32,831 nt of DNA. It comes from Acholeplasma sp. GTDB lineage: Bacteria > Bacillota_I > Bacilli_A > Acholeplasmatales > Acholeplasmataceae. Made by a program: the position numbers and the translations under genes. The number at the start of each line of letters is the position of its first letter. Within the stretch, counting starts at the first letter, position 1. Below are positions 16,371 to 32,831 of this stretch, piece after piece. The DNA is taken from the NCBI GenBank assembly GCA_012838065.1, contig DUPY01000039.1:1-32831 (forward strand), given 5' to 3'. The notes beneath the pieces were generated by a model that was given only the letters and a program-made list of their open reading frames with translations, was not told where the DNA came from and did not search any database.

Positions 16371-19300
16371 TTAGTTAATATTGTCCCAACTTGTCGTCTC
16401 ATCATGTAGTCCCCAACCACCGCTTGAGGTTTCAGATTCGATAACAATAGCAAATTTACGACTAAACGGTCTACCGGTAGGATTTAACACATAGTAGTAT
16501 CGCCCGATATATTCGCCACCTAAAAGTGGCAGCTCAAAATTATCCAAGCGTTCTTGTGTCCATGTATCAATCGTATCTATAGAAGTATTTAAATAAATTG
16601 TGTAATTAAATCTTTCTCCAGCAACCATATTATCCGTTGTTGGCCCCGTATATATCGGTGTTACTAAACTGAAATTGTATGCCCCTGACATGTTTCTACC
16701 AAAGTTATAGATGATACCTAACCCTGGGAAATAAAACATTGTTGCTTGGTTATTAATGCCGATAATATCATCCAAGACTACTGGATAATCATAGCCATCA
16801 TTGTCATTACCGAAATCAATCTCCTCAGGCGTTTCACTTAACATCAAGTTTTTAATAGAAATTAATATTACTTTGTTTTTTATAAGTGATTCATCAGAAT
16901 TCGCATCAACAATTGTGCCATCTGCTTTTCTAAAATACACTTCAAATTGTAATGTTAAGTTGTATTTAATATCTTCAGCTGTAATATAGTAATACACAAT
17001 CTTAGTTCCATCTTCTGATACAATTCGGTATGTTACTATTTTTTCTTGTGCCTCAGTACCAATAAAGTTTGTTTCAAGTTCATCCGTCCAGTTGTTATTA
17101 TCAAGTATATTGGTTTGGCCATCAATAAGTCTTTGAATTTTCGCACCAAGTGGGATTGTGAAATTTGGTGCATAATACATCAATGGTAAATCTGATAAAA
17201 TACCATCAATTCTAAAATGATGATATCCAGCATCAATTGTACTTGCATAATCGATTCCAAACAAGTTTGCACGAACTTGATAAGCTAAGTCAGTCAGTGG
17301 TACTAAATTTTCGTTAACATAATCATATGAAGTTATTTGTGGATATGAAATTGTAATACCCGTATTTGTTTGGAACTGTATATTTTTCATATATGCGTCA
17401 CTACCACGCACCATTGTAACTGTAATTTCATCATCAATTTCTTTTAAATTATACGTTATACCATCACCACGATCTAACTTAAGGGTAATTGTTTTTGGCA
17501 TCATTGTTTCGCTACCTAAATCAAGTTTGTTTGTAACATATACTGTAAAGAAATTGTTTGATGAACTTGTATAAAAGATTTCTAAGTCATAGACTGTTGA
17601 ACCATCAACTTCAATGAATATATCATGATACATTGATGAATCAATAAAATCCCATTCAATATCAATGCGCGTAACATCATCTTCACGGTAAACAAACAAA
17701 CTGTTAGAAACTTGGATATTATCGTTTTTATAAATAACTTTAGATCCAACATTACGTTCAGCAATTGTATGAACAATAGTATCTGCTTCAATACCGACTT
17801 CAGATGTAATTTCGTATGTTATATAGTATTCTCGCTTACCATTATTAAAATCGTAAGATATTGTCGCACCATTAAGCTCAGCAAATGGTGATATGCTCAG
17901 ACGAATAATCCATTCATCTTCATTACTGTTATCTAAATACAATTCATACCCAATGGTGTTGTTTAAATACAGAACGTCTTCTTCAGTAGATATTATTCTT
18001 ACTTGAAGATCAACGCTATTTTTGGTAACACCCTCAAAAATATTACCAAAGGCCATATATGTAGTAAACGATGTATCTGTTTCAGCAAACGTTGTCGATA
18101 ATCCTTCAAAGTCACTACTATATGTATCGTATTCTACTGATAAGACACTGTGCTTTGTTGACGGCGCTTTATTAATATGAAGTTGGAATACATCTGCATT
18201 TAAATAGTATCCATATTCAATAACATACGTCATTTGGGCCAATTTAGGACTAAAGACAATCCTAAATGCTGATGGCGAATTTACATTAACTTTTGGTATG
18301 TATGATAATGTATAAAATTCTTGTGGAATTTCTTCACCTTTTTTGTTTGGATCATTCTCATCATAAACATAGATGCCATAAACATGCATTTTATGATTGA
18401 TTGGTAAGTACTCGCTACTAAACGTCATTCGTAAAGATCCATCTGCGTTTATGCTATCAGTTGATGTATAAACTTTGTTATCATGATTAAAAGTTAAATT
18501 TGCTTCTGTTGGTGACTCATTTAAATAAAGGTGAGCATCTTCTTCAATTGACGGTTCAACTTCAATAACTATATTGTAAACTGTTTTGTAATAAAGCATA
18601 AATAGTTCTTGTGCGCTTGCTTCAGAATATACTGTTAATTCAAAACTTGCTGAACCATTAACGATATCAACATCATTTGGTGTTGTCCACTTCATATCGT
18701 TTGTTATAATATGGCCCATACGATGATCTTTGTAAGCATTTTTGAAATTTGTAAAATTCGTATCGTCAATACCATTTTTAGCAACCACAGCATTTTCAGA
18801 TAATGTAACACTTTCTACTTCATAATATAAATTGAGCATTGAAGTAAATGCTGATGCACTAACTTTAAATGTAATTGTGTTTGTATTTTCATTATATATA
18901 CCACCAGATAACGTTGGGTAGTTACCATTTGGATCATATAATGTTAAATCTGCTAGACTTGAATTTGTACCATCTGGGAATAAATATGATTTGTCATTAA
19001 ATAACACTTGATACATTTCTGCTCGTGCATTTTCTATATTTTTTAATGACACTTCTTCTCGAGTCCAAGTTTCAATTGGTACTGATTCAGAAGGATAACT
19101 ACGAATCAATTTTTGGTATGGAACATCATAAACATTAAGATACTCTTCATTTGATTCATCAATTCGAAGTAATCGATCGAGCTTAATATTTAATGGTAGT
19201 ACTGCACCATTTGTACGCCCTGCTTGGGTAGCAAGTACATACATACCACCTTGTGGTTTTTCTCGGTTGCCGCCTTCTTTGAATATATCAGCTAAGACAT

Positions 19301-20855
19301 CACGGTTGGCGTTATAGATTTGATCTGAAATAGCAGGATCCATTAATGGAAAGTTTTCATCAAATATATAAGAAGCTCCAATGTTATAACCTGTATCTGT
19401 TATTCTTTCAATTGGATATAACTGATGTTCACTGGTTGAAGCTCCACCACCGCCACCAGCATTATATGTTTTTGGATAGAAATTATCCTCTCGATCATAA
19501 CTCTTAACTAGTGTTCCTGTGTTATTAAAAAATGAAAGATTAAGTGATGCAATTTCATTATTTGTTATGCCAAAGTCTGAAGGTGATGATTGTCCTGGTG
19601 AAACAGAATACGTATATTCTTTAAAATACTTTGTTTGATCATAATCGTACGCTCTATGTACACCATCACCTGTTGTTAATGTTAAATGTCTTGTAAATCT
19701 TTGCACATCAAAGCCTTCACTTTGATTAAACTGAACATTTGTAACTGTATAACCATTCCATTGCCATCTAATCGTATATGTGACCGTTGGGGCGTATGTA
19801 ATTGTTCGTGTAATATCGCCAATGTACGATACATAACCGACTACTACAGATGGCGAAGTGTCATTTGCTCTAGCAGTGTAATATAGATCAGGTGTGAGTA
19901 AACCATTTTCCAGTTTATAAAAGCGATAAAATCCATTCTGATTATTATAAGAAGCTTGATCTGCTCGTCCTATCATATCAACATTAGGGTCCATATTCAT
20001 AATATTTGAGAAATTTGTTGAGACTAATGCACCACGATAACCTCTTTGGAGTCTACCAAAAATGCCACCGAAACCACGTTTGCTTCCTGGAGTCATCGAT
20101 AGCTTTGAGTGGCTTGGGAAAAGAACAGTACTATTATTTGCATAATATAGTGTTGTAGTATCATTATAATTTTTCCTAACTTCGTAACTATACGTTTGGT
20201 AAGACGATTCTCTAATTGCCTTAACTTTTCCATAATGAACAGCTGTACTTATATCTACTCTTGTAAATATTGCTGAACCGCTTCCGGCACCACCAAAAAT
20301 ATACGTAGCTCCTACGACACCACCGGCAACATCTGTAGACGCAACGTCTCCGTGATTTAGCATATTGGTCATATTTGATAAACCATATCCGATCACACCA
20401 CCAGCAGCTGCATAAATACCAGGACGTTGTCCATTTGCCGTGTTTACATTTGAACTATATTGCCCAATTTCTCTAGTAAATGCATAGACATCTCCAAAAT
20501 TAAGTCCGTTGGATAATATGCTCTTTGCTACACGATCCTTAGAATCAGAGTTGTTGACAGTATGATCTGATTCGCTTGTACCAAAAGATCCACGAATTGA
20601 TCCTCTACTTGCGCTATATGTACCACTGGCAAGTTCTGTACCGAGTGAGACTCCTAAGATACCTGCAGCTCGCACATAAGATTGTGCTTTACCAAAAATT
20701 GTTCCACTATTAGCGCTATCTAATATTTGCGGTGTTAAATCAATTGGATTACCATTTTCTTTTTTAATATAACCTTCTAAAATTAATGCTGTTGTATCGC
20801 CAAATGCTGCTACAATACCGCCCAATGTTAATCCATTTCGATGAAGATAAATCAT
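16371..20855 (-). CDS. Giant GLUG-repeat surface protein, C-terminal part (after in-frame TGA)
   Basis: The 1,494-residue frame shown starts at an internal ATG, but it is open back to the in-frame TGA at 20919-20921 and continues the upstream protein in the same frame. It has no signal peptide and no convincing ribosome-binding site. Its first 200 residues carry more GLUG-like turns (LTLGGIVAAFGD, AAGGVIGYGLSN, VAGGVVGATYIFG) separated by NxGxV strands, as in a parallel beta-helix. From about residue 500 there are only acidic beta-rich repeats with aromatic strands (for example TYRIVSEDGTKIVYYYITAED), probably stacked Ig-like domains. There is no LPXTG motif or C-terminal membrane span; the end reads SGGWGLHDETTSWDNIN. 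Expected to be at the cell surface if translated. Confidence 0.75.
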   Translation of the reverse strand: MIYLHRNGLTLGGIVAAFGDTTALILEGYIKKENGNPIDLTPQILDSANSGTIFGKAQSYVRAAGILGVSLGTELASGTYSASRGSIRGSFGTSESDHTVNNSDSKDRVAKSILSNGLNFGDVYAFTREIGQYSSNVNTANGQRPGIYAAAGGVIGYGLSNMTNMLNHGDVASTDVAGGVVGATYIFGGAGSGSAIFTRVDISTAVHYGKVKAIRESSYQTYSYEVRKNYNDTTTLYYANNSTVLFPSHSKLSMTPGSKRGFGGIFGRLQRGYRGALVSTNFSNIMNMDPNVDMIGRADQASYNNQNGFYRFYKLENGLLTPDLYYTARANDTSPSVVVGYVSYIGDITRTITYAPTVTYTIRWQWNGYTVTNVQFNQSEGFDVQRFTRHLTLTTGDGVHRAYDYDQTKYFKEYTYSVSPGQSSPSDFGITNNEIASLNLSFFNNTGTLVKSYDREDNFYPKTYNAGGGGGASTSEHQLYPIERITDTGYNIGASYIFDENFPLMDPAISDQIYNANRDVLADIFKEGGNREKPQGGMYVLATQAGRTNGAVLPLNIKLDRLLRIDESNEEYLNVYDVPYQKLIRSYPSESVPIETWTREEVSLKNIENARAEMYQVLFNDKSYLFPDGTNSSLADLTLYDPNGNYPTLSGGIYNENTNTITFKVSASAFTSMLNLYYEVESVTLSENAVVAKNGIDDTNFTNFKNAYKDHRMGHIITNDMKWTTPNDVDIVNGSASFELTVYSEASAQELFMLYYKTVYNIVIEVEPSIEEDAHLYLNESPTEANLTFNHDNKVYTSTDSINADGSLRMTFSSEYLPINHKMHVYGIYVYDENDPNKKGEEIPQEFYTLSYIPKVNVNSPSAFRIVFSPKLAQMTYVIEYGYYLNADVFQLHINKAPSTKHSVLSVEYDTYSSDFEGLSTTFAETDTSFTTYMAFGNIFEGVTKNSVDLQVRIISTEEDVLYLNNTIGYELYLDNSNEDEWIIRLSISPFAELNGATISYDFNNGKREYYITYEITSEVGIEADTIVHTIAERNVGSKVIYKNDNIQVSNSLFVYREDDVTRIDIEWDFIDSSMYHDIFIEVDGSTVYDLEIFYTSSSNNFFTVYVTNKLDLGSETMMPKTITLKLDRGDGITYNLKEIDDEITVTMVRGSDAYMKNIQFQTNTGITISYPQITSYDYVNENLVPLTDLAYQVRANLFGIDYASTIDAGYHHFRIDGILSDLPLMYYAPNFTIPLGAKIQRLIDGQTNILDNNNWTDELETNFIGTEAQEKIVTYRIVSEDGTKIVYYYITAEDIKYNLTLQFEVYFRKADGTIVDANSDESLIKNKVILISIKNLMLSETPEEIDFGNDNDGYDYPVVLDDIIGINNQATMFYFPGLGIIYNFGRNMSGAYNFSLVTPIYTGPTTDNMVAGERFNYTIYLNTSIDTIDTWTQERLDNFELPLLGGEYIGRYYYVLNPTGRPFSRKFAIVIESETSSGGWGLHDETTSWDNIN

Positions 20856-20918
20856 CCCACCGTATGTAGCATCGCTATTGGGATTTGTTCCTCCCGCAAC
20901 ATAAATTGAATAATTTGC

Positions 20919-20921
20919 TCA
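20919..20921 (-). other. In-frame TGA inside the giant GLUG gene
   Basis: The reading frame runs NDRNRNN-TGA-ANYSIYVAGGTNPN without any shift, and GLUG-type sequence is found on both sides. The codon could descend from TGG, CGA or AGA by a single base change. It is followed by GCA. No stem-loop typical of selenocysteine insertion was recognised. Confidence 0.9.
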
Positions 20922-23900
20922 ATTATTCCTATTCCTATCATTTGTTGTACTGGTTAGTGTACCTGAATAAGTATTATAATAAATGATTTCCCCAGTGTTT
21001 GCAACATCTCTAATTAAATTATAATTAAACGTTGAAATACCACCAACATATGAATTTGCACGACCTTTAATATGTTGATTTGAATAATTATCGTGATATG
21101 ATGTAATATCACCTAAATTCATAACATTTTGAATTTTACCAACATTAATATTTACAATGCCGGCAACATATAGATTACGAGCGATTAGCGTTCCTTCATA
21201 TGTTGTTGCATTACTTGAATGTCCACTTGTTTGGTAAATCACAGTATTTCCTCTTATTTCAGTAGTTACAATATTACCTTCATTAAATGAATCCATAATA
21301 TATCTTTCTTTTTCAAGATTAGATAATATCCATGTAAATCCTGCAACATAGATGTTGTCTTCATTTAAAATCGATACTAAATGAATGTCACCTGAGTTAA
21401 TAACTTTTTCAAAATCAACATTTGTTGCTTGAGTTATGTTTGAAATTTTTAACATTTTAGCAACTGTACTTTTTTGGTTATTTTGACCAATTGTTAAATC
21501 ACCCAGATTTTCAACATATATAAGTTTCGCATTTTTATCTTTTGTTGAAACGAAGAAGAATGAAATTTTAATTTCATCTGGCTCATTTAGCCTTACACTA
21601 TTTGAATGGAAAAAAGAACTTGGAATAACGTAATCTTCCATATTATACGCTCTTGATAAAACAATACCTTCTTCTGAGTTATCAATGACGGTCGATGCAT
21701 AAAATATTTGACCATTTAAAGTTTTATAATCCATGTTTGTAAAGTCATTCATAATGTTTTTTGTTATTGGTGTACGAATTTCACTACCACCAACACCTGA
21801 AACAGTTACTGGATTGTTAATTAAATAGCTAATACTTGCTTCTTGGAAGTTTGTATTCATTGTTGTAATACCAGCGGCAAATAAATAGGTATAATCGTTA
21901 ACATACTCGCCTTTAATAACACCATTGTTTTCAAAGCGACCATTTCTTAACACTTCAACATTATTAACAGCTTGACTATTTTTAAATCCACGACCTCTTA
22001 CACTACCAAATATGCCGCCAACAAATTGATTCACTTTTGTTGTTGATTTTCCAACAAAAGCATTGCTTGTAATTGTTGCACGGTTTGTCACTTTAATAAT
22101 ACTGTTGCCATTTACTGTATAATTATAAATTTCTCCAGCAATTCCACCAACATAAATGTTGACATCATTGATGCTTGAGTAATTTGAATTGATAGAACCA
22201 ATTCCAAAAACATCGCCTTCATTAAGAGCGTTTGTAAGTTTTAGTTCTTGTGTATTGTTAGATCCAATGATTCCGCCGATATAGTAGTTTGCATTAATTT
22301 GCAGCCCTTCAAAGTTATGCTTCGTTGGTTCAAATTGACTTATATCCTCGTTGTATTTCGCGTTAACGACACCTTTGTTTGCTACATTTTCAACGATGCC
22401 ACTTGCTCTACCTGCAATTCCACCTACATAGGATTGACCGATTGCGTTCGTACCTAAAACAATATTAGCGTTTGAAATGACATCAGAAATTCGACCTCTC
22501 GAATCACTTACAAAGCCAATAAAGAAGGTTCTACCGTAATTTGGTCTACTGTTTGTTACAGTAATTGTACTGTTATAAAAATTTATTTTTTCAACAATAC
22601 CAGTTGTTGAAACCGACCCAAGAAAACCAAGATAGTAATTTGAACCTACGACGCTTGGATTTTTTATTGTCATATTAAAGATGTAACTGTTTTGATTTTG
22701 ATTGTCATTTAAAACATCTGTCCCACCATAAAGTTTTCCTGTAAATTCTCTGGATGGTGTTTTGTAGTTATTAAAATTAATCATGTTGATATCATTTTTT
22801 ATATAGTATGTTTGAGCATTGAATGCTTTACCATAAAAATCGCTTGATGAGCTAATTAATTTGCTCATCATCATAATATCAAAAGCATCATCAAGAACAA
22901 TTTCCTCTTTCGTTTTATCAAATTCAATATTTAATAGTTGAGGATAACCATCCTTATGCATATTGTACCAATACAACGTACGGTCATATGCAGAAATTAT
23001 AGGATTACCATCATGTAAATTAATATTAATAAAATTTAAATTAGTTGCGGTAGGGTCATCAAGAAGATCATCAACACCTCGAATGCTATCAATTTTTTTC
23101 GTATTTACTGCATTGATATTTGGTAAAGTATTTGAGTTGATTAACCCTGTTTTTATATCTTGTTTTGTATAATTTTTTATTTCTGTTTTATTTTGAGCTA
23201 AATTTGACGATGCATCTAATTCATTGTTATATGAAAGACCTTTTAAACCAAGTTGGTCGACATCTTCTTCATTTAAATTTGTATGATTATTATAGTAAAC
23301 AAAAGGTTTTACTGTAAATTTAGAACGACCATCTCCAGTAGCGATAACATTATCAGAAACGATGAAACTATTTGTTATTTCGCCATGATTCGTATGTACA
23401 AATCCAGCTGCAGTATAAGTCACATCGCTTGATGGAATGTATTGAAGTCTAAAACGAATACCTGAATTATCTACGTTATTCGTTTTTTTCTCATCAATAA
23501 CAGCGACGTTATGTATTTTACCTTTGTTGCTTCCTGCAAGCATTGCTGCACGATATAAACTTGTTGGCGCATCAAGCAACTCAAAAATCGGGTTTTTCAA
23601 GATAAAGTTCTTAATAATACCCGTTGTATCAATATGTGCAAACATTGCATAATATTCAAATGTTCCAACTTCTGTTCGTGTTGAAATATCGCCAACTTGG
23701 AAAATCGCTGTAATGTAGTCGTAATCAGCAAAGTATAAATTACTAATTGTAAAACCATTACCATCAAATGTACCAGTAAATGGCATACTTATGTCTTGTG
23801 AAGGAATACTTACACCAAGTGGAATAAAAGTTCTTGCACCCATAGATGCATAATCAATATCATTTAAGAGTACATAATCTAAATCTAATACTTTTTTAAT

Positions 23901-24317
23901 TGTATTTTTATATGCATAGGCGTTCACTGATGCCACATTAACATAATTGTATGATGCTGCTACAGATAAATAATACAGTTCATCTGGTGTTGTAATTGAA
24001 ACTCTTTTATTATTAACTAACGTATTAATTTCATTAACAATTGTTGCATCTCTATTATTTTTTGTAGTTACACTTTCACCTTGGACAGACTGTTGCATGT
24101 AATAATCTATTTTATTAAATACATCAATAAAACGAACATACTCTTCAACTGCTTGAGTCGGATTACTTAGTGTATGGTCAAAAAAACTATTACTAAATAC
24201 AGGTGTTCGATCGAAATCTTCAGCTGATTTTACGTTTTCCAACTTTGTTGAAAAAGGTAAAAAAACAAGTGCAGCTATTAATAAAATCGCAAGTAATCTT
24301 TTTGCTTGTTTATTCAT
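20919..24317 (-). CDS. Giant GLUG-repeat surface protein, N-terminal part with signal peptide
   Basis: 1,132 residues beginning with a classical signal peptide (MNKQAKRLLAILLIAALVFL, cleavage near VKSAED). At 145-196 the GLUG/beta-helix entry module reads LLNDIDYASMGARTFIPLG, then FTGTFDGNGFTISNLYF, AMFAHIDTTGIIKNFILKN and AAMLAGSNKGKIHNVAV; a second such module begins near YYIKNDINMINF. Many turns follow with YIGGIIGSNN, VGGIAGEIYN, FVGGIFGSVRG and YVGGISTFN, each with an NxGxI strand. Such proteins are secreted adhesins or matrix proteins. The ATG is 1 base after the preceding TasA-like gene and uses CGGGAGG in that gene's tail. The frame then meets a lone TGA and would otherwise reach a total of 2,648 codon positions. 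Last gene of the operon. Confidence 0.85.
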   Translation of the reverse strand: MNKQAKRLLAILLIAALVFLPFSTKLENVKSAEDFDRTPVFSNSFFDHTLSNPTQAVEEYVRFIDVFNKIDYYMQQSVQGESVTTKNNRDATIVNEINTLVNNKRVSITTPDELYYLSVAASYNYVNVASVNAYAYKNTIKKVLDLDYVLLNDIDYASMGARTFIPLGVSIPSQDISMPFTGTFDGNGFTISNLYFADYDYITAIFQVGDISTRTEVGTFEYYAMFAHIDTTGIIKNFILKNPIFELLDAPTSLYRAAMLAGSNKGKIHNVAVIDEKKTNNVDNSGIRFRLQYIPSSDVTYTAAGFVHTNHGEITNSFIVSDNVIATGDGRSKFTVKPFVYYNNHTNLNEEDVDQLGLKGLSYNNELDASSNLAQNKTEIKNYTKQDIKTGLINSNTLPNINAVNTKKIDSIRGVDDLLDDPTATNLNFININLHDGNPIISAYDRTLYWYNMHKDGYPQLLNIEFDKTKEEIVLDDAFDIMMMSKLISSSSDFYGKAFNAQTYYIKNDINMINFNNYKTPSREFTGKLYGGTDVLNDNQNQNSYIFNMTIKNPSVVGSNYYLGFLGSVSTTGIVEKINFYNSTITVTNSRPNYGRTFFIGFVSDSRGRISDVISNANIVLGTNAIGQSYVGGIAGRASGIVENVANKGVVNAKYNEDISQFEPTKHNFEGLQINANYYIGGIIGSNNTQELKLTNALNEGDVFGIGSINSNYSSINDVNIYVGGIAGEIYNYTVNGNSIIKVTNRATITSNAFVGKSTTKVNQFVGGIFGSVRGRGFKNSQAVNNVEVLRNGRFENNGVIKGEYVNDYTYLFAAGITTMNTNFQEASISYLINNPVTVSGVGGSEIRTPITKNIMNDFTNMDYKTLNGQIFYASTVIDNSEEGIVLSRAYNMEDYVIPSSFFHSNSVRLNEPDEIKISFFFVSTKDKNAKLIYVENLGDLTIGQNNQKSTVAKMLKISNITQATNVDFEKVINSGDIHLVSILNEDNIYVAGFTWILSNLEKERYIMDSFNEGNIVTTEIRGNTVIYQTSGHSSNATTYEGTLIARNLYVAGIVNINVGKIQNVMNLGDITSYHDNYSNQHIKGRANSYVGGISTFNYNLIRDVANTGEIIYYNTYSGTLTSTTNDRNRNN

Positions 24318-24318
24318 T

Positions 24319-25032
24319 TCAACTTACCTCCCGTGGCCAAATTGAATCGTTCCATGGTGTTTTTGGTAGTCCCCAATTATTTTCAGGCCCACCATAAAAC
24401 TGAACCACTTCAACGATAAACCCTAGCTGTAAACGATATTCTCCATCATAAGGTTGATACGTTTGGTTTTCATTATAAACGTCAATTAAGGGTATCGTAA
24501 GCGGTTGCGTAGCATCACCACTTCCAACAACTAAATTTGTATAGTAAAAATAGCCGTCAAATAAACGATTATCGTAAAAACCGTGCTTTTCAGGTGTACT
24601 ACCTGAAGCAGGTTCATAAAGATTGTAGTTAAATGGTGAATAAGATTCCTGAGTCGTCGCAATCTCGCTTATTACACCACCAGTTACATAGGTTAATGAA
24701 ATTTGTTCGTATACTGCAACACGAATAAACGATTTAACGTTACTGTGTACAACAATATCCACACCAAACTTCGTAAAATACTTCGAGTCGCTTGGATTTG
24801 TAATATTTACACCAATAACGCCTTCTTTTATTAAGCCATTGAATTCATAAAAAATATTGTCTGTTTCTTTTGAGCCGTCAGGTTTAATGAAATAGGGAAT
24901 AATTTCGACGCCCACATCACCTATTGGCTGCTCGATAATTAAATCTTGTCGCGCGTTTAAAAAAGCTCCAATAAACGTTGAAGTTATTAAAATTAGATTT
25001 AAAAGTATAAATGCCAAAATCAGTTTCTTCAT
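24319..25032 (-). CDS. TasA/camelysin-like exported protein 4
   Basis: 237 residues with a short hydrophobic signal (LILAFILLNLILITSTFIGAF, then LNARQD) of the kind processed by SipW-type peptidases, followed by a beta-rich secreted domain (VGVNITNPSDSKYFTKFGV, SFIRVAVYEQISL). The FxRVAVYE strand recalls the VRVxV strands of TasA-like fibre proteins. The C-terminus, NNWGLPKTPWNDSIW, resembles the C-terminus of the giant GLUG protein made from the next gene. AAGGAG lies 7 bases before the ATG, and the gene touches the GLUG start, so the two should be made together. Overall family assignment is from layout and context, not from close similarity. Confidence 0.65.
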   Translation of the reverse strand: MKKLILAFILLNLILITSTFIGAFLNARQDLIIEQPIGDVGVEIIPYFIKPDGSKETDNIFYEFNGLIKEGVIGVNITNPSDSKYFTKFGVDIVVHSNVKSFIRVAVYEQISLTYVTGGVISEIATTQESYSPFNYNLYEPASGSTPEKHGFYDNRLFDGYFYYTNLVVGSGDATQPLTIPLIDVYNENQTYQPYDGEYRLQLGFIVEVVQFYGGPENNWGLPKTPWNDSIWPREVS

Positions 25033-25058: not shown

Positions 25059-25733
25059 CTAGTCTTCGGATACTTCTTGATTGAGTGTCATAACTAAGTA
25101 CGAAAAATCGATATCTAGTTGGTTATCCTGGTTACCAAAATGTGGACCAGCATCAATTGAGTCTATACGAAAGATTAATGTTAAGCCTTTATTTTCTGGG
25201 TCAATATAGTTATTTCTTTGATTTGGATAACCATTTAATTTATAACCAACAATAAGTTCATTTAATCCATGAACTAAATCAATTGTTTGGATAGCTTCTT
25301 CCTCATTTTCTGCCATTGGATTATAATATGTTAATTTAAATCCTGGTATTGTAACTGGATTTTCTGGCGTACCAGCATTTAAAGCAACATAAATTGATAG
25401 CGTCAAGATACCATCAATTGTTCCTGCGTTTTTTAAGTTTACTGCAAAATAATGTGTTTGACCTGGAACAAAATATTTCAAGCGATATTCACTATCAATT
25501 AAATACCACTCTTCTTTTTCACTTGGTATGATGTCGTCTTTAGTAATCGGATCTGTCATGTCATCTACATTAGCAACATAATAAAATTCTGCTTTACCTC
25601 TTAAGTTACCAGAATAAATCCAAATTTCTTCTGTTCGTTCTGTAAGTGTAAACCAGGCGAATGAGATTGATGCTGTTAAAATGACAGCAACGAGAAACAT
25701 AAAGAATAAGCGTAAATAGATGCGTTTTTTCAC
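25059..25733 (-). CDS. TasA/camelysin-like exported protein 3
   Basis: 224 residues with a GTG start (25733) and a strong AAAGGAGG 8 bases upstream that can be partly hidden in a small hairpin. The N-terminal signal RLFFMFLVAVILTASISFAWFTLTER ends in the AWFT motif typical of SipW-dependent exported proteins. The mature domain contains YFVPGQTHYFAVNLKNAGTIDG, the P-G-x(4)-[FV]-x-V-x-[VL]-x-N-x-G-[ST] strand that is common in TasA/camelysin-type proteins and marks the Ig-like fibre fold. Probably a secreted structural subunit. It sits directly after the short SipW peptidase gene, its likely processing enzyme. Confidence 0.75.
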   Translation of the reverse strand: MKKRIYLRLFFMFLVAVILTASISFAWFTLTERTEEIWIYSGNLRGKAEFYYVANVDDMTDPITKDDIIPSEKEEWYLIDSEYRLKYFVPGQTHYFAVNLKNAGTIDGILTLSIYVALNAGTPENPVTIPGFKLTYYNPMAENEEEAIQTIDLVHGLNELIVGYKLNGYPNQRNNYIDPENKGLTLIFRIDSIDAGPHFGNQDNQLDIDFSYLVMTLNQEVSED

Positions 25734-25743
25734 AGCACAACCT

Positions 25744-25756
25744 CCTTTAACAAAGG
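25744..25756 (-). promoter_or_regulatory. Hairpin masking the ribosome-binding site of TasA-like 3
   Basis: On the minus strand CCTTT-GTT-AAAGG forms a small stem that includes the start of the AAAGGAGG ribosome-binding site (25748-25741). It may tune translation of the following GTG-start gene. Confidence 0.3.
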
Positions 25757-25763
25757 CATCAAG

Positions 25764-26231
25764 TTATTTTTCTTTTTTTATTTCTAAAAATAAGTAATAA
25801 GTTGTTGCGATAATACCAATGATTCCTATTAAAACAAATAGAATGTACTTGCTAGATACAAAAAAACCAATGAGCGGGATGCTAAAGATGACTTTTCCAA
25901 TAACTTTATCATAAGTTATTGGAGCATCAAGTGATTCGTTAGCATCCCCCTTGGTTGTAATTTTCCCATCTTTAATTTCCACTATACGGTGCATTACGGG
26001 GATACCACCAGTTTCAATAGCGATAATATCACCAGGCACTAATGCTTGTTTTTGCGTATCATCATATACATCTACATAGACTAAGGCATTGGTATTAATT
26101 GTTGGACTCATTGATGGGCTTAATACGGCATATGATTTGTGCCCTAAAAGCTGCATAATGATTACAAACATAAATACAACTAGAATAAGTGCGAATAAAG
26201 CGTATGATGCATATTTTTTAAAAGTTTTCAT
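25764..26231 (-). CDS. sipW: SipW-type (ER-type) signal peptidase I, short form
   Basis: A membrane serine protease that removes signal peptides outside the membrane. 155 residues with an N-terminal span (YALFALILVVFMFVIIMQLL), box B SPSM with Ser40, box D VMHR with His81 in place of the lysine of ordinary bacterial type I enzymes, box E TKGDANESLD with Asp96, and a C-terminal span. The Ser-His-Asp set is the SipW/ER type. It lacks the long tails of the two other peptidases in this operon. The ATG is 1 base after the preceding gene with no clear ribosome-binding site, so translation is probably coupled. It lies between two TasA-like genes, its likely substrates. Confidence 0.9.
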   Translation of the reverse strand: MKTFKKYASYALFALILVVFMFVIIMQLLGHKSYAVLSPSMSPTINTNALVYVDVYDDTQKQALVPGDIIAIETGGIPVMHRIVEIKDGKITTKGDANESLDAPITYDKVIGKVIFSIPLIGFFVSSKYILFVLIGIIGIIATTYYLFLEIKKEK

Positions 26232-26232
26232 G

Positions 26233-26898
26233 TTAGTTTGATGCTAATCCTGTTGTAAAATCAATTTCAGCTGTACCAAGTTGTTCCCAAGTTACATATT
26301 CTTCTTGTTTAGCTTCAAAGACTAATGTTACTTTAAACTCAGCATTTTCATATTCATTGCCAACAGTCCAACCATTTAATATCATTGATGTAATGACCTC
26401 GATTGGATCCGCAGGGTTAGCAGAATCATATGGAGCTACAACTTCATTATAACGATACTCGTGGACATTATAAGTGGTTCCACTTACAACACGTGTAGAT
26501 GCATTTGCTTGTTTTATCCATTTTGAGCCGAAAGTAATGAATAATTTCGCTGGTGATTCAATCGGATTGCTTGCATCAATTGAATATGCATCAAGCCAAT
26601 CTATATACTCTGCGCCTACATCTTGTTTTTTAACTTGGATATTCATTAACACACGAATTTCACTTGTAACCGTTGATGTGTTCTCAAGCGCAAATGTTTC
26701 TCCAACTAATTCTTGCCCTGGTACAATTGGCGTATCTTCTGTTATTTCTCCTAGCCATTCATACTCGATATCACCGACTATCATGACTGCTGGTTCCGTA
26801 GATTTTGTATCTGTTAACCATGCACTAATCATTGATGTCGTAAATACCATAAACCCGATTAATAATAAAAATAATAGTAATGTTTTTTTGTTTTTCAT
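26233..26898 (-). CDS. TasA/camelysin-like exported protein 2
   Basis: With start ATG 26898 (GAGGTG 7 bases upstream; an earlier ATG at 26913 lies ahead of that site) there are 221 residues. The signal LLLFLLLIGFMVFTTSMISAWLTDTKS ends in the AWLTD motif of SipW substrates. The mature part begins with VGDIEYEWLGE, continues with VPGQELVGETFALENTSTVTSEIRVLMNIQV, a beta strand pattern typical of TasA-like proteins, and has a late strand AEFKVTLVFEAKQEEY matching the conserved C-terminal strand of this group. Probably a secreted fibre or coat subunit. Confidence 0.78.
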   Translation of the reverse strand: MKNKKTLLLFLLLIGFMVFTTSMISAWLTDTKSTEPAVMIVGDIEYEWLGEITEDTPIVPGQELVGETFALENTSTVTSEIRVLMNIQVKKQDVGAEYIDWLDAYSIDASNPIESPAKLFITFGSKWIKQANASTRVVSGTTYNVHEYRYNEVVAPYDSANPADPIEVITSMILNGWTVGNEYENAEFKVTLVFEAKQEEYVTWEQLGTAEIDFTTGLASN

Positions 26899-26912
26899 TG
26901 TTAAACACCTCA

Positions 26913-27677
26913 TTAAACTAAGTATATATAAATTGCATTGAATCTAAACATCCCATTTTGGTAAGCATTGTGCGTCGCATTTACATCATAGGCTATTGTA
27001 AATTCAATGGTTAATCTCTCACTTGGTGCAACTAAGTTTACATCTGAATCATCGGTATTGATGATGTGTAAGGTTTTATTCTCATCAATTAAGTTACTAA
27101 TTCTATAATGATTGAATGTCGTTTCATCATCTGCTTCGTTGATGTTTGTTGTAAATGTTTTTGTAATAACATTTTTTTCTCCACCAACGTCTTTAGTAAC
27201 TTTATACGTACCATCAACGATATAATACACATCGCGCATGTCGTAACCTGTTATACCTGAAATATAACTTTCAATTTGTAAAATATTTACTCTTGCTTGT
27301 AGCTCATATGCACTAAAATTAATAATATCGATTAAAAATTCAAATTGATCTCCTGGAACTGTGTCTCCAAAGAAATTGTGCATTTGTTGAGCATTATTTA
27401 TAATTGCATAACCATATCCATAAGATGCTTCATCTCGATCTACAATCAGTCCTGGGAAATTTGCTTGGACTTCTGCATTCGTTGGATATAATTCATCATA
27501 ATTTATGCCATTTTTTCTTACTCTAAATTCACGGACTGCTCCACCAGAAACGCCAGCGAATATATCGCCTGTATACACTTCATCTGCTATTGCAAACCAC
27601 GCGAGTACTGAGGTTGCCAATAGAAGAGCCGTCATTATTAAATAAACGAATGAAAGTAATAATGATTTATCTTTCAT
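26913..27677 (-). CDS. TasA/camelysin-like exported protein 1
   Basis: 254 residues with the signal LSFVYLIMTALLLATSVLAWFAIADE, whose ATxxAWF end is characteristic of SipW-processed proteins. The mature domain has VREFRVRKNG, VPGDQFEFLIDIINFSAYELQARVNI and a closing ERLTIEFTIAYDVN strand, in the usual order for a TasA-like beta-sandwich. AAGGAGG lies 5 bases before the ATG, 15 bases after the second SipW gene. The next gene starts 14 bases after its stop. Probably an exported structural subunit; exact role unknown. Confidence 0.78.
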   Translation of the reverse strand: MKDKSLLLSFVYLIMTALLLATSVLAWFAIADEVYTGDIFAGVSGGAVREFRVRKNGINYDELYPTNAEVQANFPGLIVDRDEASYGYGYAIINNAQQMHNFFGDTVPGDQFEFLIDIINFSAYELQARVNILQIESYISGITGYDMRDVYYIVDGTYKVTKDVGGEKNVITKTFTTNINEADDETTFNHYRISNLIDENKTLHIINTDDSDVNLVAPSERLTIEFTIAYDVNATHNAYQNGMFRFNAIYIYLV

Positions 27678-27692
27678 AGGAACCTCCTTATA

Positions 27693-28316
27693 CTAATTTC
27701 CTAAATCTATATCATCCTCTTTATTTTCTTTATCAAGTTGTTCTTTTAATTGTTCAAGTTTATGGTTTTGAACACTTCGAATAATTTGCACAACTTGAAT
27801 GAGGACAAATACAAATAGAATACCTACGATAACTGCGATTAATGTTGTTCTATGTTTACTCAAACCTTTACTTATATTGATAAATCCAATTCTTCCAATG
27901 ACATGACCTTGATAATTTGATTCTGTCAATAAATCTACGTCATTTTTAAATTCATCAGGTATTGATTCATCTAAGTTTATTTTATCGCCGCGCATGTAGA
28001 AGCTATTATTAGGACCTTCATCATGCACACGGTGAACAAACATCAAACCCTGGCTTGTCTTATACACGACAATATCACCAACATTAACATCTTCAAAATC
28101 TTTAATTTTAATAAAGATAAAGTCGCCTTCTTTAATGCTTTTTGGATCGCTGGTTTCCATCGAATTTGTAGGAACAAGGGAATAAGAGTATCCAAAAATA
28201 TTTATGAGTTTATTGTTTTTTATTGCTATAGCGCCAAATGCCATAATGTAAACAGCTAATCCAAAAAGTAGAATGGATAATGTGCTTAGTCCAATTTTTA
28301 TAATACGTTTATACAT
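27693..28316 (-). CDS. SipW-type signal peptidase I, second copy
   Basis: 207 residues: N-terminal span (8-32), catalytic Ser52 in PTNSMETS, His95 in FVHRVHDE, Asp111 in MRGDKINLDES, a second span near 165-188 and a charged cytoplasmic tail of about 20 residues. Like the copy at 31791 it has an NIFGYSY segment before the active serine and an enlarged loop after the GD box (FKNDVDLLTESNYQGHVIGR), features absent from the short copy. It overlaps the DUF2357-like gene by 8 bases, so they are co-translated. Likely processes one or more of the neighbouring TasA-like proteins. Confidence 0.88.
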   Translation of the reverse strand: MYKRIIKIGLSTLSILLFGLAVYIMAFGAIAIKNNKLINIFGYSYSLVPTNSMETSDPKSIKEGDFIFIKIKDFEDVNVGDIVVYKTSQGLMFVHRVHDEGPNNSFYMRGDKINLDESIPDEFKNDVDLLTESNYQGHVIGRIGFINISKGLSKHRTTLIAVIVGILFVFVLIQVVQIIRSVQNHKLEQLKEQLDKENKEDDIDLGN

Positions 28317-30198
28317 TATCTGTTTTTTCCTTTAGTTGTTTGGCAAGTGTTTGTTTCTTACGCTCTATAGCTTTTTCTGCTTGAATTTTTGCACGTTCTT
28401 TTTCTTTTGCAATTCTTCGTTCTTGAGCTTTCTTTAAACGTAATTTTTCTTGTTCTCTTTGACGCTTCAATTGTTCTTGTTTACGTTTCTTTTCTGCTGC
28501 TAGTTTTTTAAGTTCTTTTTTATGTTTTTCTTCAAGCGCTTTAATTTCAGCTATACGTTTTTTATTATATTCATCTTTAATCGACTTGATAACTTTCGCT
28601 TCTTCAGCTTTTAAAGTGTTACGATATGCTTTAATTTCATCCTTAACGGACACTTTATCAAGCAAAATCTCTTGTTTGCTTTCTCGAACTTCAAGTAATT
28701 TTTTCTTAACAAGCTCTTCTCGTTTTTTATTAATTCTAAGATCGTTTTCAATTTGAGCTTTCGATTTTACTGTTTTCGCTGTTATAAGTTTGTTTTTAAT
28801 GTTCGCTTCAAGTAATCGTTTATTTGCTCGTTCTATTTCTTTTAAATAACGTCTTTCTAATCTTAAGGAATCGTTGTAATCGACTTGCTTTACTTCACGA
28901 ATCATACGAGCGATTTGTGCTTTCTTCTTCGCATCGTTTAACGATTTAACTGGATCTTTGTCTTTAACCATCCGACTAAATATGTTATCTTCATCATCAA
29001 GTTCAAAGAATGATTTATACAACGAATTCGAAATATTAATCGTATCTCTTAACGCACGTTTTAACGTTGTTTCGTAAGTTTTAGCTTGTGTTTCATGATA
29101 TTCAACCGAGCGTTTAAACAATCTTTTCATTTGTTCAAGATAATATTGATTCATCGCTTCTGCTTCAATGATTTCATCTACAGGTCGAATCATAAAGTCA
29201 TTTGCTGATTTTCTTACGAACTTCATACTTTTACGTTTCATTACACGCTCTTTTGTTTCAGCGTATAATTGTCTACGTTTTTCTTGGTTTGCTTCAAATG
29301 TCATAAATGTTGTAAGTAAGTTACGATATATGTCATCAACATATGCTTGATCAATACCAAGATTTTTTTCTTTTATTTCTGTTGTAAATGCAAGGGTGTT
29401 GTATCTATCTAAGAATAGCCATAACATATAAGCATTTTTATAATCAACGTTTTTTAAAATAACTTGGGTCTTCATAATTGGTGGAATAACTTTTTTCTCT
29501 TTAGCCATCGTTTCCATAAACTTAGATTGTTTAAGACTCGATACCAATTTATTAAGATTTTCCACACGTTGAAGTAATTTCAAGTTATAATCATTAATTT
29601 TTTTATTGTCTGGTGCTTCTTTAATTGTTACATCAAGTTTGATAACTACTTCACGGTCATCAATTGGAAACACTGAATTCACATTCAAATGCTTCTTTTG
29701 AAAAGACTCGTAGTTATCTTTAATCGCTTCATATCTTTTTCTTACGAATAAGAATAAGCGGTCAATTAATGTCATAACAAAGCGGTTTTCATAAACCCCG
29801 TAGTTTACATCGCTAAATGTTGTTTGAATTTTTTTAGGCATGACCATGCCATCTTCACGAACTTCTTTTATTAAGTGACTGTTTGAGGCTAAGTGTCTTA
29901 CCGATTGAGACGTAATCTTTTTAGCTTTTTCGATAGCCACAACTTCATCTTCATATTTCAATGCACTTTTAGGGTTTAATATAATTTTATTTAAACTTGG
30001 AAAATATGATTCGATCGTTTGGATCCATTGCTCATCAAAAGTCTTTGTTTCTTGAATGTTGATTTGTGAAACTGTGTTCTTACCACCAGTTACTTTCTCA
30101 AAAAAGTATGGCGCAAAATAGTCATCACTTTCAACTTCATAAAACATATCGATGTACTTTTCATAAAAGACTAATAAATCGTCACGGCTCTTGTTCAT
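28309..30198 (-). CDS. DUF2357-like protein with long C-terminal coiled coil
   Basis: 629 residues, no signal peptide or membrane span, so cytoplasmic. The N-terminal 250 residues contain SQSVRHLASNSHLI (98-110), MVMPKKIQTTFSDVNYGVYENRFV (118-141) and an IDRLFLFVRKRYE helix, matching the DUF2357 pattern whose hallmark is YENRFV. The C-terminal part, about 430-625, is a very long Lys/Glu/Arg-rich helix likely to form a coiled coil. In the McrBC-like systems where DUF2357 occurs it partners an AAA+ GTPase/ATPase and often a PD-(D/E)xK nuclease; no such nuclease motif was seen here. The partner ATPase gene ends 16 bases upstream. It could be an adaptor or scaffold for the ATPase. AAAGGAT lies 5 bases before the ATG. 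Confidence 0.75.
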   Translation of the reverse strand: MNKSRDDLLVFYEKYIDMFYEVESDDYFAPYFFEKVTGGKNTVSQINIQETKTFDEQWIQTIESYFPSLNKIILNPKSALKYEDEVVAIEKAKKITSQSVRHLASNSHLIKEVREDGMVMPKKIQTTFSDVNYGVYENRFVMTLIDRLFLFVRKRYEAIKDNYESFQKKHLNVNSVFPIDDREVVIKLDVTIKEAPDNKKINDYNLKLLQRVENLNKLVSSLKQSKFMETMAKEKKVIPPIMKTQVILKNVDYKNAYMLWLFLDRYNTLAFTTEIKEKNLGIDQAYVDDIYRNLLTTFMTFEANQEKRRQLYAETKERVMKRKSMKFVRKSANDFMIRPVDEIIEAEAMNQYYLEQMKRLFKRSVEYHETQAKTYETTLKRALRDTINISNSLYKSFFELDDEDNIFSRMVKDKDPVKSLNDAKKKAQIARMIREVKQVDYNDSLRLERRYLKEIERANKRLLEANIKNKLITAKTVKSKAQIENDLRINKKREELVKKKLLEVRESKQEILLDKVSVKDEIKAYRNTLKAEEAKVIKSIKDEYNKKRIAEIKALEEKHKKELKKLAAEKKRKQEQLKRQREQEKLRLKKAQERRIAKEKERAKIQAEKAIERKKQTLAKQLKEKTDNV

Positions 30199-30214
30199 AG
30201 TTTATCCTTTATCA

Positions 30215-31750
30215 TTAAATCATTTTTCTTAAATCGTTAATATATTCAATTGCAGTGCTGAATGCATTTTTACCAAACAAACGATCCATTTGTGTAATTA
30301 ACGCTTCGAGTTCATCTTGTAAGAATGGTAAGTTTAAACTTTCAAACTTGCGTAAAATCTTACGTGTAATAATATAATCTAAACCTTCTATTTCAGTACC
30401 ACCACAAGCTATATACACCGGTACGAATGACTTGATTTGTTTCATGATACGATTACCGAATGTAATTTTGAAGTTTTGAGCAATGAAGTCATCTAATTTT
30501 TCTAAGTTTGCTAAGCTCTTAGGTGAAATTGGATGTTCTTTGATTGCTTTTTCAAACAATGTGTCAATATACTCATAACTCATTGATACACCTTCTGTAT
30601 ATGGTGCATCAACAAATGGAGCTTTATGGTTCATTTCAATTGAAGTAGCTCTATCATAGACTTTATCTGTAATCGCAAACGTTGAGTCATCCTTGTTTGC
30701 CGTACCGATAAACCATAGGTTTTGAGGTAACAGCAACTTACCGTTTAGAATATGCTTTGGATCACCTGGTTGTGTATCTGGAACGATGTCAATCTTCCAG
30801 TCATTAATGTTTGGCATTTCCATAATCGATAAGAATTCTGCAAAGTAATACTCAATACGCGCTAAGTTCATTTCATCAAGTACCATGAATGTAACATCTT
30901 CACGATATGTTCTTTCATATAAGTCTTTTAAGAAGTCTGTTTCATTAAACTTCTTTGTAAACTCGTTTAAGTAACCAATCATTTCTGCACGGTCACGCCA
31001 TGATGGTTGAACCGGAATGATTGATGCGTCAAACTGGAAGAATTTACCCATAGCATATGGTAAAGATGTTTTACCAGTACCACTTATACCTTCTAAGATA
31101 AGAATCTTAGATGTTGCCATACCAGCAAAGAATGAACTAATAACTTTACGGTCATAATATAGATTTAATCGCGATGCAGCAAAGTTAATGAAACGCGTTA
31201 CCAAGTCTTTTAAGTTCAACATATCATCTTCTGACATTTGTACAGTTGTAAGTTGGTTATCGTATTGTTCATCAACACTTATTAACTTAACAAAGCGAGA
31301 ATCCATTCTTTTCTTTCTTTCTTTTTCGCTTTTAGGTGTTTTATCCGCAAAAAGATCTGGATTTAACCCAAAAGATTCCATTTTTAATTGTAATATTTTG
31401 TTTTTTTCTTCTGTTAATTCCACAGCTTTTTGCGATAAAATCGCTACTTCTTCTAATAAAACATCTTTTTCAATTTCTTTTTTAGCAAATCTGATGTATT
31501 TACGGATGAATTGATACAATCTAATGCCTAGAAATGTTAAAAATGCCAATGTCACAATAAATACAAATATGGCAATTAACCAGTCTAAGACATTAAAAAA
31601 CTGGCTGTGATCAAAAAACTGATTAAAATACTTAACAACGTCATTAAAAAATAAATCGGCAAAAGCCTCAAACAAACGTTTGAAAAAATTGCCGATGTTC
31701 TCAAATAAATTTCTAATGAAGTTGATATAGTAACTTGAAAATTCAACCAT
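30215..31750 (-). CDS. Membrane-anchored McrB/MoxR-like AAA+ ATPase
   Basis: 511 residues. An amphipathic, Phe-rich N-terminus is followed by one membrane span at 55-78 (LDWLIAIFVFIVTLAFLTFL), a basic cytoplasmic linker and coiled coil to about 125, then an AAA+ domain: Walker A GISGTGKTS (221-229), Walker B FMVLDEMNLARIEYYFAEFL (288-307), sensor I FIGTANKDDST (348-357) and an arginine-finger candidate DRATS (366-370). The LDEMNLARxEYYFxxFL form is that of the McrB/MoxR-like branch. It probably uses ATP to remodel proteins at the inner membrane face. The gene lies between a SipW peptidase and a DUF2357-like gene, so a role in exporting or assembling the TasA-like proteins is suggested but unproven. 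GAGGTG lies 5 bases before the ATG. Confidence 0.82.
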   Translation of the reverse strand: MVEFSSYYINFIRNLFENIGNFFKRLFEAFADLFFNDVVKYFNQFFDHSQFFNVLDWLIAIFVFIVTLAFLTFLGIRLYQFIRKYIRFAKKEIEKDVLLEEVAILSQKAVELTEEKNKILQLKMESFGLNPDLFADKTPKSEKERKKRMDSRFVKLISVDEQYDNQLTTVQMSEDDMLNLKDLVTRFINFAASRLNLYYDRKVISSFFAGMATSKILILEGISGTGKTSLPYAMGKFFQFDASIIPVQPSWRDRAEMIGYLNEFTKKFNETDFLKDLYERTYREDVTFMVLDEMNLARIEYYFAEFLSIMEMPNINDWKIDIVPDTQPGDPKHILNGKLLLPQNLWFIGTANKDDSTFAITDKVYDRATSIEMNHKAPFVDAPYTEGVSMSYEYIDTLFEKAIKEHPISPKSLANLEKLDDFIAQNFKITFGNRIMKQIKSFVPVYIACGGTEIEGLDYIITRKILRKFESLNLPFLQDELEALITQMDRLFGKNAFSTAIEYINDLRKMI

Positions 31751-31790
31751 TGTTACACCTCAACTTGTTCTTCGAGTTTATATTTTACTA

Positions 31791-32471
31791 TTATTTATTG
31801 TTAGCTTCTTGTTCTTTTCTTAATTCTTCAAGTAATTCTTGACGCATACGTTCTTTTTCTGCTTCTTGGTTAGATTGATATTCTTGAACAAGTTTTTCTT
31901 TTTTAACTTGATAGATATCTTTAAATAAAACGTATACTTGCCATGCAAGTAATAAGAACATTGGTAGGATGACTAATAAGCCAAATCCAAGTCTTGTTTG
32001 AACAAAAGCTAGTAATGATCCTAAGCCAGAGATTTTACCTTTATATACTGCAAGTGCACCATCTCTATTGATGGCAGGGTCAATTTTACCAGGATCGCCA
32101 TCATATTTATCACCACGTGTAAATATTAGGCCACCATCTTCGTTTGGATCATTGATAATTCTATGGGTATTCAAAGCGTTGATGCGTTGGTCAAAGAATG
32201 TAATTACGTCGCCTTGCTTAAGGTTTTGTCTTGATTCATCATTAAGTAATTTAACAAAGATTAAACTATTTTGTTTAAATGAATCTTTTTGTGTACCTTC
32301 CATCGAATCAGATTCTACTGCTAGAAATCCGTATCCAAACAGGTTTGGAATATCCTCTCTATCTCTGGATGTAATAGTAATTATTGAGAAAATCAGTAAA
32401 AATACTATCAATCCATAGAAAATAATATTTAATACAATCTTAAACGCTTTATTTTTAGACGCATTTTCCAT
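31791..32471 (-). CDS. SipW-type signal peptidase I, first copy with cytoplasmic tail
   Basis: 226 residues: N-terminal span (12-34), NLFGYGF, catalytic Ser56 in VESDSMEGT, His103 in LNTHRII, Asp121 in FTRGDKYDGDPG, a second span near 160-182 and a C-terminal Glu/Lys/Gln-rich coiled coil of about 40 residues that should stay in the cytoplasm. The Ser-His-Asp set is of the SipW/ER type. The charged tail is unusual for a signal peptidase and could contact the coiled-coil ATPase or DUF2357 protein encoded next. AAGGAG lies 11 bases before the ATG. It is the first gene after the promoter at 32506-32534. Confidence 0.88.
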   Translation of the reverse strand: MENASKNKAFKIVLNIIFYGLIVFLLIFSIITITSRDREDIPNLFGYGFLAVESDSMEGTQKDSFKQNSLIFVKLLNDESRQNLKQGDVITFFDQRINALNTHRIINDPNEDGGLIFTRGDKYDGDPGKIDPAINRDGALAVYKGKISGLGSLLAFVQTRLGFGLLVILPMFLLLAWQVYVLFKDIYQVKKEKLVQEYQSNQEAEKERMRQELLEELRKEQEANNK

Positions 32472-32505
32472 TATTTTATCGCTCCTTAAGCATTTTCTTA
32501 TATGT

Positions 32506-32534
32506 ATTATATATTAATTTTTAAATATTGTCTA
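32506..32534 (-). promoter_or_regulatory. Promoter of the SipW/AAA+/TasA-like operon
   Basis: TAGACA (32534-32529; one mismatch to TTGACA), a 17-base spacer and a perfect TATAAT (32511-32506) on the minus strand. Transcription would start near 32499, leaving a 28-base leader with AAGGAG. Confidence 0.7.
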
Positions 32535-32572
32535 TGGATTTTTGTGTTTGATAGGCAATTATTGGGTTTTCC

Positions 32573-32602
32573 AACCACCTAGAGCATATTGTCTAGGTGG
32601 TT
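32573..32602 (-). terminator. Strong hairpin without T run after the partial TasA-like gene
   Basis: A perfect 11-bp stem (AACCACCTAGA / TCTAGGTGGTT) with an 8-base loop lies 17 bases beyond the stop codon. On the minus strand it is followed by GGAAAACCC rather than T residues. It may be a weak terminator or an mRNA 3'-protecting stem that lets some transcription continue into the sipW gene. Confidence 0.55.
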
Positions 32603-32619
32603 AGAAATATTAATTTCAA

Positions 32620-32831
32620 TTATGCTATATCTTTTTTTACTACTGCAAGACTTGCAAATAAAGGAGCTGTAAAGATTGCATTGTAAGCTTCGTTATCCCA
32701 GCCTTCAATCCAAATACGTACTGTAATTGTAGCATATGCATAACCTTCAGTGTCCAATTTGTGTGTTGGGACACTTCCATCTGGATCAATAAATTGACCT
32801 GGGTTCTCTGGATCTTCAATATGTGTTGCTC
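32620..32831 (-). CDS. TasA/camelysin-like exported protein, C-terminal part (cut by window edge)
   Basis: The last 69 residues of a protein whose start lies beyond the window. The strand ATITVRIWIEGWDNEAYNA followed by a final small beta region (APLFASLAVVKK) is a close match to the C-terminal signature of SipW-dependent TasA-like proteins, which commonly read VRIWIEGxDxxx. A DPENPGQFIDPDG loop precedes it. It probably belongs to the same fibre or surface system as the genes that follow and would be a fifth putative SipW substrate. Confidence 0.75.
   Translation of the reverse strand, partial: ATHIEDPENPGQFIDPDGSVPTHKLDTEGYAYATITVRIWIEGWDNEAYNAIFTAPLFASLAVVKKDIA

Follow-up and report, generated by a model that had tools for sequence, protein, structure and literature searches.

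The window analysed here (32,831 nucleotides, the entire contig C23 of a 1.18-Mb Acholeplasma sp. genome that is 98% complete) carries on its minus strand an operon in which genes for SipW-type signal peptidases, for proteins with SipW-type signal peptides and for a giant surface protein stand together with those for an McrB-type AAA+ NTPase and a DUF2357 protein. We interpret it as a c-di-GMP-tuned surface-assembly operon of the CoCoPALM type, whose NTPase would assemble or gate SipW-processed surface proteins, and we give this reading a probability of about 0.55. It is built on gene content, domains, motifs, synteny and phylogeny.

Between 32471 and 16371, the reading frames of the window include 11 tightly packed minus-strand frames corresponding to 10 genes: three SipW-type peptidases, four SipW-signal proteins, the AAA+ protein, the DUF2357 protein and the giant surface protein. 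The frames named in the original prediction are all present where it placed them, on this strand, and the cluster it described is real, but its count of ten frames or nine genes has to be raised to 11 and 10. The intergenic gaps, from -8 to +40 nt, make it plausible that these genes form a single transcription unit. The features are as follows, from upstream to downstream:

32620..32829, minus: C-terminus of a fifth, upstream SipW-signal protein, ending ...VRIWIEGWDNEAYNAIF... (A5 profile, E 2.0e-11)
32568..32607, minus: strong hairpin in the interval between the upstream TasA-like gene and the SipW-AAA-DUF2357 genes (z -4.94)
32506..32534, minus: sigma-70-like promoter candidate, TAGACA-17-TATAAT (pattern match only)
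31791..32471, minus: SipW-type signal peptidase 1, 226 aa, preceding the AAA+ gene, with 2 TM segments and a charged, coiled-coil-like tail (NF046067 SipW, E 2.7e-23; S56, H103)
30215..31750, minus: membrane-anchored McrB-type AAA+ NTPase, 511 aa (profile, AF2 model, Foldseek, NxD motif)
28309..30198, minus: DUF2357 (McrC N-domain) protein, 629 aa (PF09823, E 6.3e-10, 39.1 bits against a cut-off of 23.3)
27693..28316, minus: SipW-type signal peptidase 2, 207 aa (TIGR02228, E 1.6e-10; S52, H95)
26913..27677, minus: SipW-signal (TasA-like) protein, 254 aa, signal LLLATSVLAWFAIADE, with alignment A4 to the proteins that relatives have at this position
26233..26913, minus: SipW-signal (TasA-like) protein, 226 aa, signal TTSMISAWLTDTKST
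25764..26231, minus: SipW-type signal peptidase 3, 155 aa (TIGR02228, E 4.4e-17; S40, H81)
25059..25733, minus: SipW-signal (TasA-like) protein, 224 aa, signal ASISFAWFTLTERTE
24319..25032, minus: 237-aa SipW-signal-like protein, its gene directly preceding the giant one, with a C-terminal motif, NWGLPKTPWNDSIW, that is similar to those of same-position proteins
16371..24317, minus: giant secreted surface protein, about 2648 codons, one frame with one in-frame TGA at 20919-20921
16331..16363, minus: terminator-like stem 3' of the giant gene (14-pair stem, few G-C pairs)

In the region as a whole, matches to the sigma-70-like pattern are rarer than in shuffled sequences.

The presence of three SipW-type signal peptidases, as originally proposed, is borne out by their NCBIfam matches and by the serine and histidine residues listed above. 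Among the three best matches, the curated cut-off was passed by that of peptidase 3 alone. All three proteins have the SM...HR arrangement, and the columns of S56, M57 and H103 were invariant over 24 sequences (alignment A3). The SipW-type genes of the 1.18-Mb genome all lie within the operon (3/3), as do both such genes in each of the genomes G003, G031, G034, G036 and G038 (2/2). Since these are the sole three SipW-type genes found in the genome, and since the gene order is widely conserved, their clustering is more than chance.

The four small secreted proteins have the look of SipW substrates: in a pattern test, a hydrophobic stretch, mostly ending in A-W-F/L, precedes the mature part. The label 'TasA-like' used throughout rests on this SipW-type signal peptide. 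The NCBIfam models of SipW-cognate signals gave no match with these proteins, and profiles run against PDB, Pfam and NCBIfam brought no convincing homology to TasA or camelysin (camelysin PF12389 matched one of 18 cargo proteins, weakly, at E 0.033, and the PDB profile search was without match). Of the five TasA-like proteins expected at the outset, four and the end of a fifth are indeed there with SipW-type signals, but the TasA/camelysin homology implied by the name was not detected by profile searches; fibre formation by these proteins is for this reason an assumption.

The 237-aa protein gave phmmer matches in three relatives (L033, L066 and L070). SipW-signal proteins preceding the giant gene bear a position-specific C-terminal motif, VQANRF.E.WG[IL], and the upstream ones bear VR[IV]W[LI]EGWDA.[AF][FY][ND]AI (window 32620-32829; L033-L043, L068, L072 and L080; alignments A5 and A6 for both motifs). 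Because the giants and the final TasA-like protein alike end in WG, a shared C-terminal domain was also considered; profile search gave it no support.

The giant gene had been taken for a split GLUG frame. It is in fact a single frame, interrupted by one in-frame TGA, and its homologues in L066 and L070 (2455 and 2470 aa; 27% identity nearly end to end) are uninterrupted. Translation of TGA as tryptophan (code 4) was ruled out, since several of the window's genes terminate at TGA and tryptophan is elsewhere encoded by TGG. Because TGA is an ordinary stop in the neighbouring genes, the codon at 20919-20921 is a nonsense codon or an error. The GLUG assignment had been made by eye; Pfam GLUG was without match, and the protein has three to four loose repeats. 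In L045, L047, L049 and Acholeplasma granularum L098, the giant's place is taken by shorter proteins of about 710-770 aa, and that of A. granularum (L098:14666-16969) carries the Pfam carbohydrate-binding module CBM_5_12 (E 1.5e-17).

The AAA+ protein carries a Walker A motif (GISGTGKT at 221), a Walker B motif (VLDEMN at 290) and the NxD motif N352-K-D354 (invariant in alignment A1), which is present in 113 of 117 AAA+ homologues. Its N-terminus consists of a helix and one hydrophobic, transmembrane segment that starts at about residue 48 and runs into a coiled coil; the AF2 model predicts a continuous helix over residues 54-126. When the protein was compared with Pfam, no domain reached the cut-off and no DNA-binding specificity domain was found. 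A profile of 22 AAA+ homologues matched the GTPase domain of Escherichia coli McrB (6hz4) at E 1.8e-4 over residues 196-367, and Foldseek with the AAA+ model returned RavA, MCM and, more weakly, McrB-type AAA+ proteins. The PF09823 match of the partner protein was obtained with its N-terminal 250 aa; the full-length scan missed DUF2357, probably owing to the composition-bias filter. Its AF2 model predicts one helix of about 210 residues (416-626) as a coiled-coil C-terminus. No nuclease family, PD-(D/E)xK included, was found in the full-length protein or its C-terminal part, and Foldseek with this model (pTM only 0.39) gave nothing significant, probably because of the long helix. The earlier claim of an McrB-like AAA+ protein with a true DUF2357 partner is upheld by the 6hz4 and PF09823 matches.

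McrBC-type NTPases are known as DNA-restriction motors. As in E. coli McrBC (type IV restriction), a McrB-type AAA+ protein and a DUF2357 partner share an operon here, but a membrane anchor replaces the DNA-binding domain, NxD replaces NxxD and a coiled coil replaces the PD-(D/E)xK nuclease. The operon also resembles tapA-sipW-tasA of Bacillus subtilis, where a SipW-type Ser-His peptidase adjoins proteins with SipW-type signal peptides. In contrast to that locus, it has two or three peptidases and several cargo proteins of no detectable TasA homology, and the AAA+/DUF2357 pair, the giant protein and GGDEF-EAL genes are added.

The original prediction called the system undescribed, but AAA+/DUF2357 genes accompanied by signal peptidases had already been given the name CoCoPALM in 2024, in one paragraph describing NxD McrB GTPases that have a TM/coiled-coil domain and lie near signal-peptidase genes (Bell et al. 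2024, eLife 13:RP94800; PMC11090510). According to the main text of that paper, in which TasA goes unmentioned, up to 2024 none of the NxD McrB proteins had been characterised (PMC11090510). The likeness lies in the NxD McrB-type NTPase with its TM segment and coiled coil, the McrC homologue with a coiled coil and the adjoining signal peptidase genes. One CoCoPALM feature, an FtsB-homologous TM/coiled-coil domain, was not confirmed in this AAA with Pfam: FtsB/DivIC was matched by none of nine AAA N-termini, and a single weak match was to FtsL (E 0.014). To the main-text account of CoCoPALM, our loci add the TasA-like cargo, the giant proteins, the c-di-GMP genes, a hairpin and a SipW-less branch. 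Apart from the CoCoPALM paragraph, we found no relevant publication that links SipW or TasA to McrB or McrBC, nor, in the literature searched, any CoCoPALM paper later than Bell et al. 2024. We therefore prefer to class the operon as a CoCoPALM-type system whose cargo and regulation are undescribed, rather than as something categorically new.

The AAA+ protein was found in 24 of 41 near genomes and in 83 of 392 genomes of the phylum sample. The 80 named AAA+ loci include those of cultured A. granularum, A. oculi, Paracholeplasma vituli and Peloplasma aerotolerans, and others from Izemoplasmatales, Anaeroplasma, Clostridia, Oscillospiraceae and Christensenellaceae MAGs. The order SipW-AAA-DUF2357-(TasA)-SipW recurs in Acholeplasmatales, Izemoplasmatales, Anaeroplasma and Clostridia, so that the synteny of AAA+/DUF2357 with SipW-type and SipW-signal genes, which the original prediction had put up for checking, is conserved far beyond this genome. 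To quantify it, we used 50 loci from the phylum sample and relatives that encode an AAA of about 500 aa and have 3 kb on both sides. DUF2357 was adjacent in 48 of them, a same-strand SipW gene lay no more than 6 kb away in 37 (at least two such genes in 31) and a GGDEF-EAL gene within 8 kb in 31; SipW accompanies 42 of 43 named loci, a set chosen by closeness to the query, and both sets (50 and 43) are non-independent, the loci being related and a few having been fetched twice. With three SipW genes per 1.18 Mb, the rough expectation for a random 12-kb stretch is about 3%. The median gap is 12 nt between AAA and DUF2357 and 32 nt between SipW and AAA.

McrB and DUF2357 homology could also be taken to mean defence, with a membrane-bound McrBC/CoCoNuT relative as a sensor of infection or of stress at the membrane, and with effectors or a phage shield on the cell surface formed by the secreted proteins. 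The AAA indeed matches a PADLOC candidate model, PDC-M26A (E 9.3e-39), and in the main text of the CoCoPALM paper the rest of the NxD clade is made up of predicted defence systems (PMC11090510). This interpretation is nevertheless improbable: no nuclease domain was found in the operon, the synteny with secretion genes is stable over several orders, and only a handful of 107 neighbouring proteins matched PADLOC, mostly through generic models. These few matches also ruled out a defence island, and AAA+/DUF2357 pairs do not lie mainly beside nucleases or defence genes, an arrangement that the original prediction had named as one that would refute it.

Judging from gene content, the operon probably extends past the window onto contig C34. 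The N-part of the fifth SipW-signal protein (its first 313 residues) is encoded at the end of that contig (C34:1-939), and the A5 profile matched C34:175-939 at E 3.8e-52. Beyond this split gene come another SipW-signal (TasA-like) protein (316 aa) and a 231-aa membrane protein, followed by two GGDEF-EAL proteins, of 498 and 849 aa in that order, and a PAS-GGDEF protein. The same gene order is unbroken in relatives, for example L034, L036, L042, L043 and L072. We infer the join of C34 to C23 from this synteny and the split gene rather than from a sequencing read.

The 849-aa GGDEF-EAL membrane protein has intact EALIRW and DDFGTGYSS motifs, and the 498-aa one is degenerate, with DGFG. Across the SipW loci, proteins of about 850 aa mostly retain EAL and DDFGTGYSS, as would be expected of an active phosphodiesterase; those of about 470 aa have DGFG or none. 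By analogy with LapD and FimX, the degenerate protein may be a c-di-GMP receptor. The LapD/LapA system places giant adhesins under c-di-GMP control, and the pairing of a giant surface protein with an adjacent degenerate GGDEF-EAL membrane protein recalls it. In contrast to LapD/LapA, no LapG-type protease was seen in these loci, an McrB-type NTPase pair is present instead and the hosts are monoderm.

A hairpin was found at the site equivalent to 32568..32607 in all 12 relatives whose intergenic regions were folded (L033-L049 and L080; z -3.6 to -5.6); the sequences differ and a U tract is mostly absent. It may stabilise the upstream mRNA, or let through only part of the transcription, so that cargo is made in excess of machinery. 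Together with the promoter-like site at 32520, a hairpin between the two halves might instead point to two transcription units adjoining by chance, namely a c-di-GMP/TasA unit and an unrelated SipW-AAA-DUF2357 unit. The Paracholeplasma loci L036-L038, which end after the second SipW gene and have the machinery without downstream TasA or giant, would agree with such a division and weigh against the surface-assembly reading. However, hairpins mostly lacking a U tract fit partial read-through or mRNA stabilisation, and chance adjacency is very improbable because the gene order is the same across orders and classes.

In the surface-assembly operon that we favour, the SipW-type Ser-His peptidases would cut the SipW-type signal peptides off the TasA-like proteins, which would go on to form polymers on the cell surface or cover it, and would bear or anchor the giant protein. 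Its single TM helix and its coiled coil would keep the McrB-type NxD AAA+ protein at the membrane, where it would probably form a hexameric ring and be stimulated by the DUF2357 protein, as McrB is by McrC. The long coiled coil of the latter, standing in the nuclease's place, would probably contact the peptidases or the cargo and couple the ring to them; the ring could then spend its energy on the cargo, driving or gating assembly, extraction or release at the membrane. The two upstream GGDEF-EAL proteins, one with EAL intact and one degenerate and probably a receptor, would tune the NTPase by c-di-GMP.

The ring might, alternatively, serve quality control and extract or unfold misprocessed SipW-signal precursors or stuck giants from the membrane. 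A membrane-anchored AAA+ protein with a predicted RavA/MCM/McrB-like fold would suit this role, as would its conserved position next to precursors that carry a membrane helix at the N-terminus and, in a SipW-less branch, next to a C-anchored giant. We regard quality control as rather unlikely, however: signal peptidases are the sole protease partner in the operon, McrB-type rings are not known to be unfoldases, and the DUF2357 partner is not known to act as an adaptor.

This SipW-less branch bears on what the AAA+/DUF2357 pair is tied to. The order C-anchored giant, degenerate GGDEF-EAL protein, AAA and DUF2357 is common to 11 of 13 SipW-less loci, and a quick, midpoint-rooted tree places these 11 in a single clade (SH-aLRT 99), itself nested within SipW-linked sequences. 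The giant scanned from this clade has 14 cadherin-like stretches (PF12733), and the adjoining GGDEF-EAL proteins have none of the motifs searched. Given the nesting, the most parsimonious interpretation is a move of the pair out of SipW/TasA operons and to a different surface protein. As the branch keeps AAA+ and DUF2357 with a membrane-anchored giant, what the loci have in common is a surface protein and no nuclease. In a second AAA branch (about 600 aa, 4-6 TM), SipW adjoins in 18 of 18 loci. Taken with the SipW-less clade and the few PADLOC matches, this indicates that the pair is tied to surface proteins, and not to SipW alone or to defence.

The same genome holds a second AAA/DUF2357 locus, on G000:C38 (L032:2-12790), which has no SipW, belongs to the 11 SipW-less loci above and has an AAA of 50% identity. 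It encodes a C-anchored giant of at least 2722 aa, a degenerate GGDEF-EAL protein, AAA and DUF2357, and it groups with 12 other loci in one nested clade.

These observations suggest that an McrBC-like motor was recruited for cell-surface building rather than DNA cutting, which is what a large nuclease-free McrBC-type branch in surface-protein operons with c-di-GMP genes would mean. We propose, tentatively, that McrB/DUF2357 machines could be a class of membrane motors that assemble surface proteins under c-di-GMP control and are widespread among Clostridia and bacteria related to Mollicutes. The class would have diversified through its cargo, with some members serving SipW-processed fibres together with giants or proteins bearing carbohydrate-binding modules, and others, since a single switch, serving C-anchored cadherin-like giants in the absence of SipW. 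If true, an NTP-driven step would be added to SipW/TasA-type secretion, for which we know of none. The cultured carriers P. aerotolerans, A. granularum, A. oculi and P. vituli make the system testable.

The tandem copies L039, L040, L041 and L204 have the AAA without DUF2357, which weighs against the surface-assembly reading. Free-living P. aerotolerans has two copies in tandem (L040/L069). In the genomes G002, G014, G015, G194 and G383, one tandem or additional copy lacks DUF2357 and another copy has it, so DUF2357 may act in trans for the copies lacking it. L039 (2015-12732), L040, L041, L204 and L232 consist of AAA, cargo and giant, without DUF2357 and second SipW, and their genomes each contain a complete copy at another place.

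The second AAA branch (L235, L236 and L246-L260) has a fixed order of SipW-signal genes, SipW, AAA, proteins of about 440 and 265 aa, a 12-TM protein and a protein of about 810 aa. Contig L073, from a 'Candidatus Omnitrophota' MAG, encodes a 65%-identical AAA and is probably a binning error. In L063-L065, an AAA of about 900 aa with 12 TM helices is accompanied by a DUF2357-like gene, without SipW. Finally, in the operons of L056, L058 and L261-L263 a DUF2357-like gene is surrounded by short AAA genes, two or three in number, and accompanied by large N-anchored proteins, one of which, in L058, carries a transglutaminase domain.
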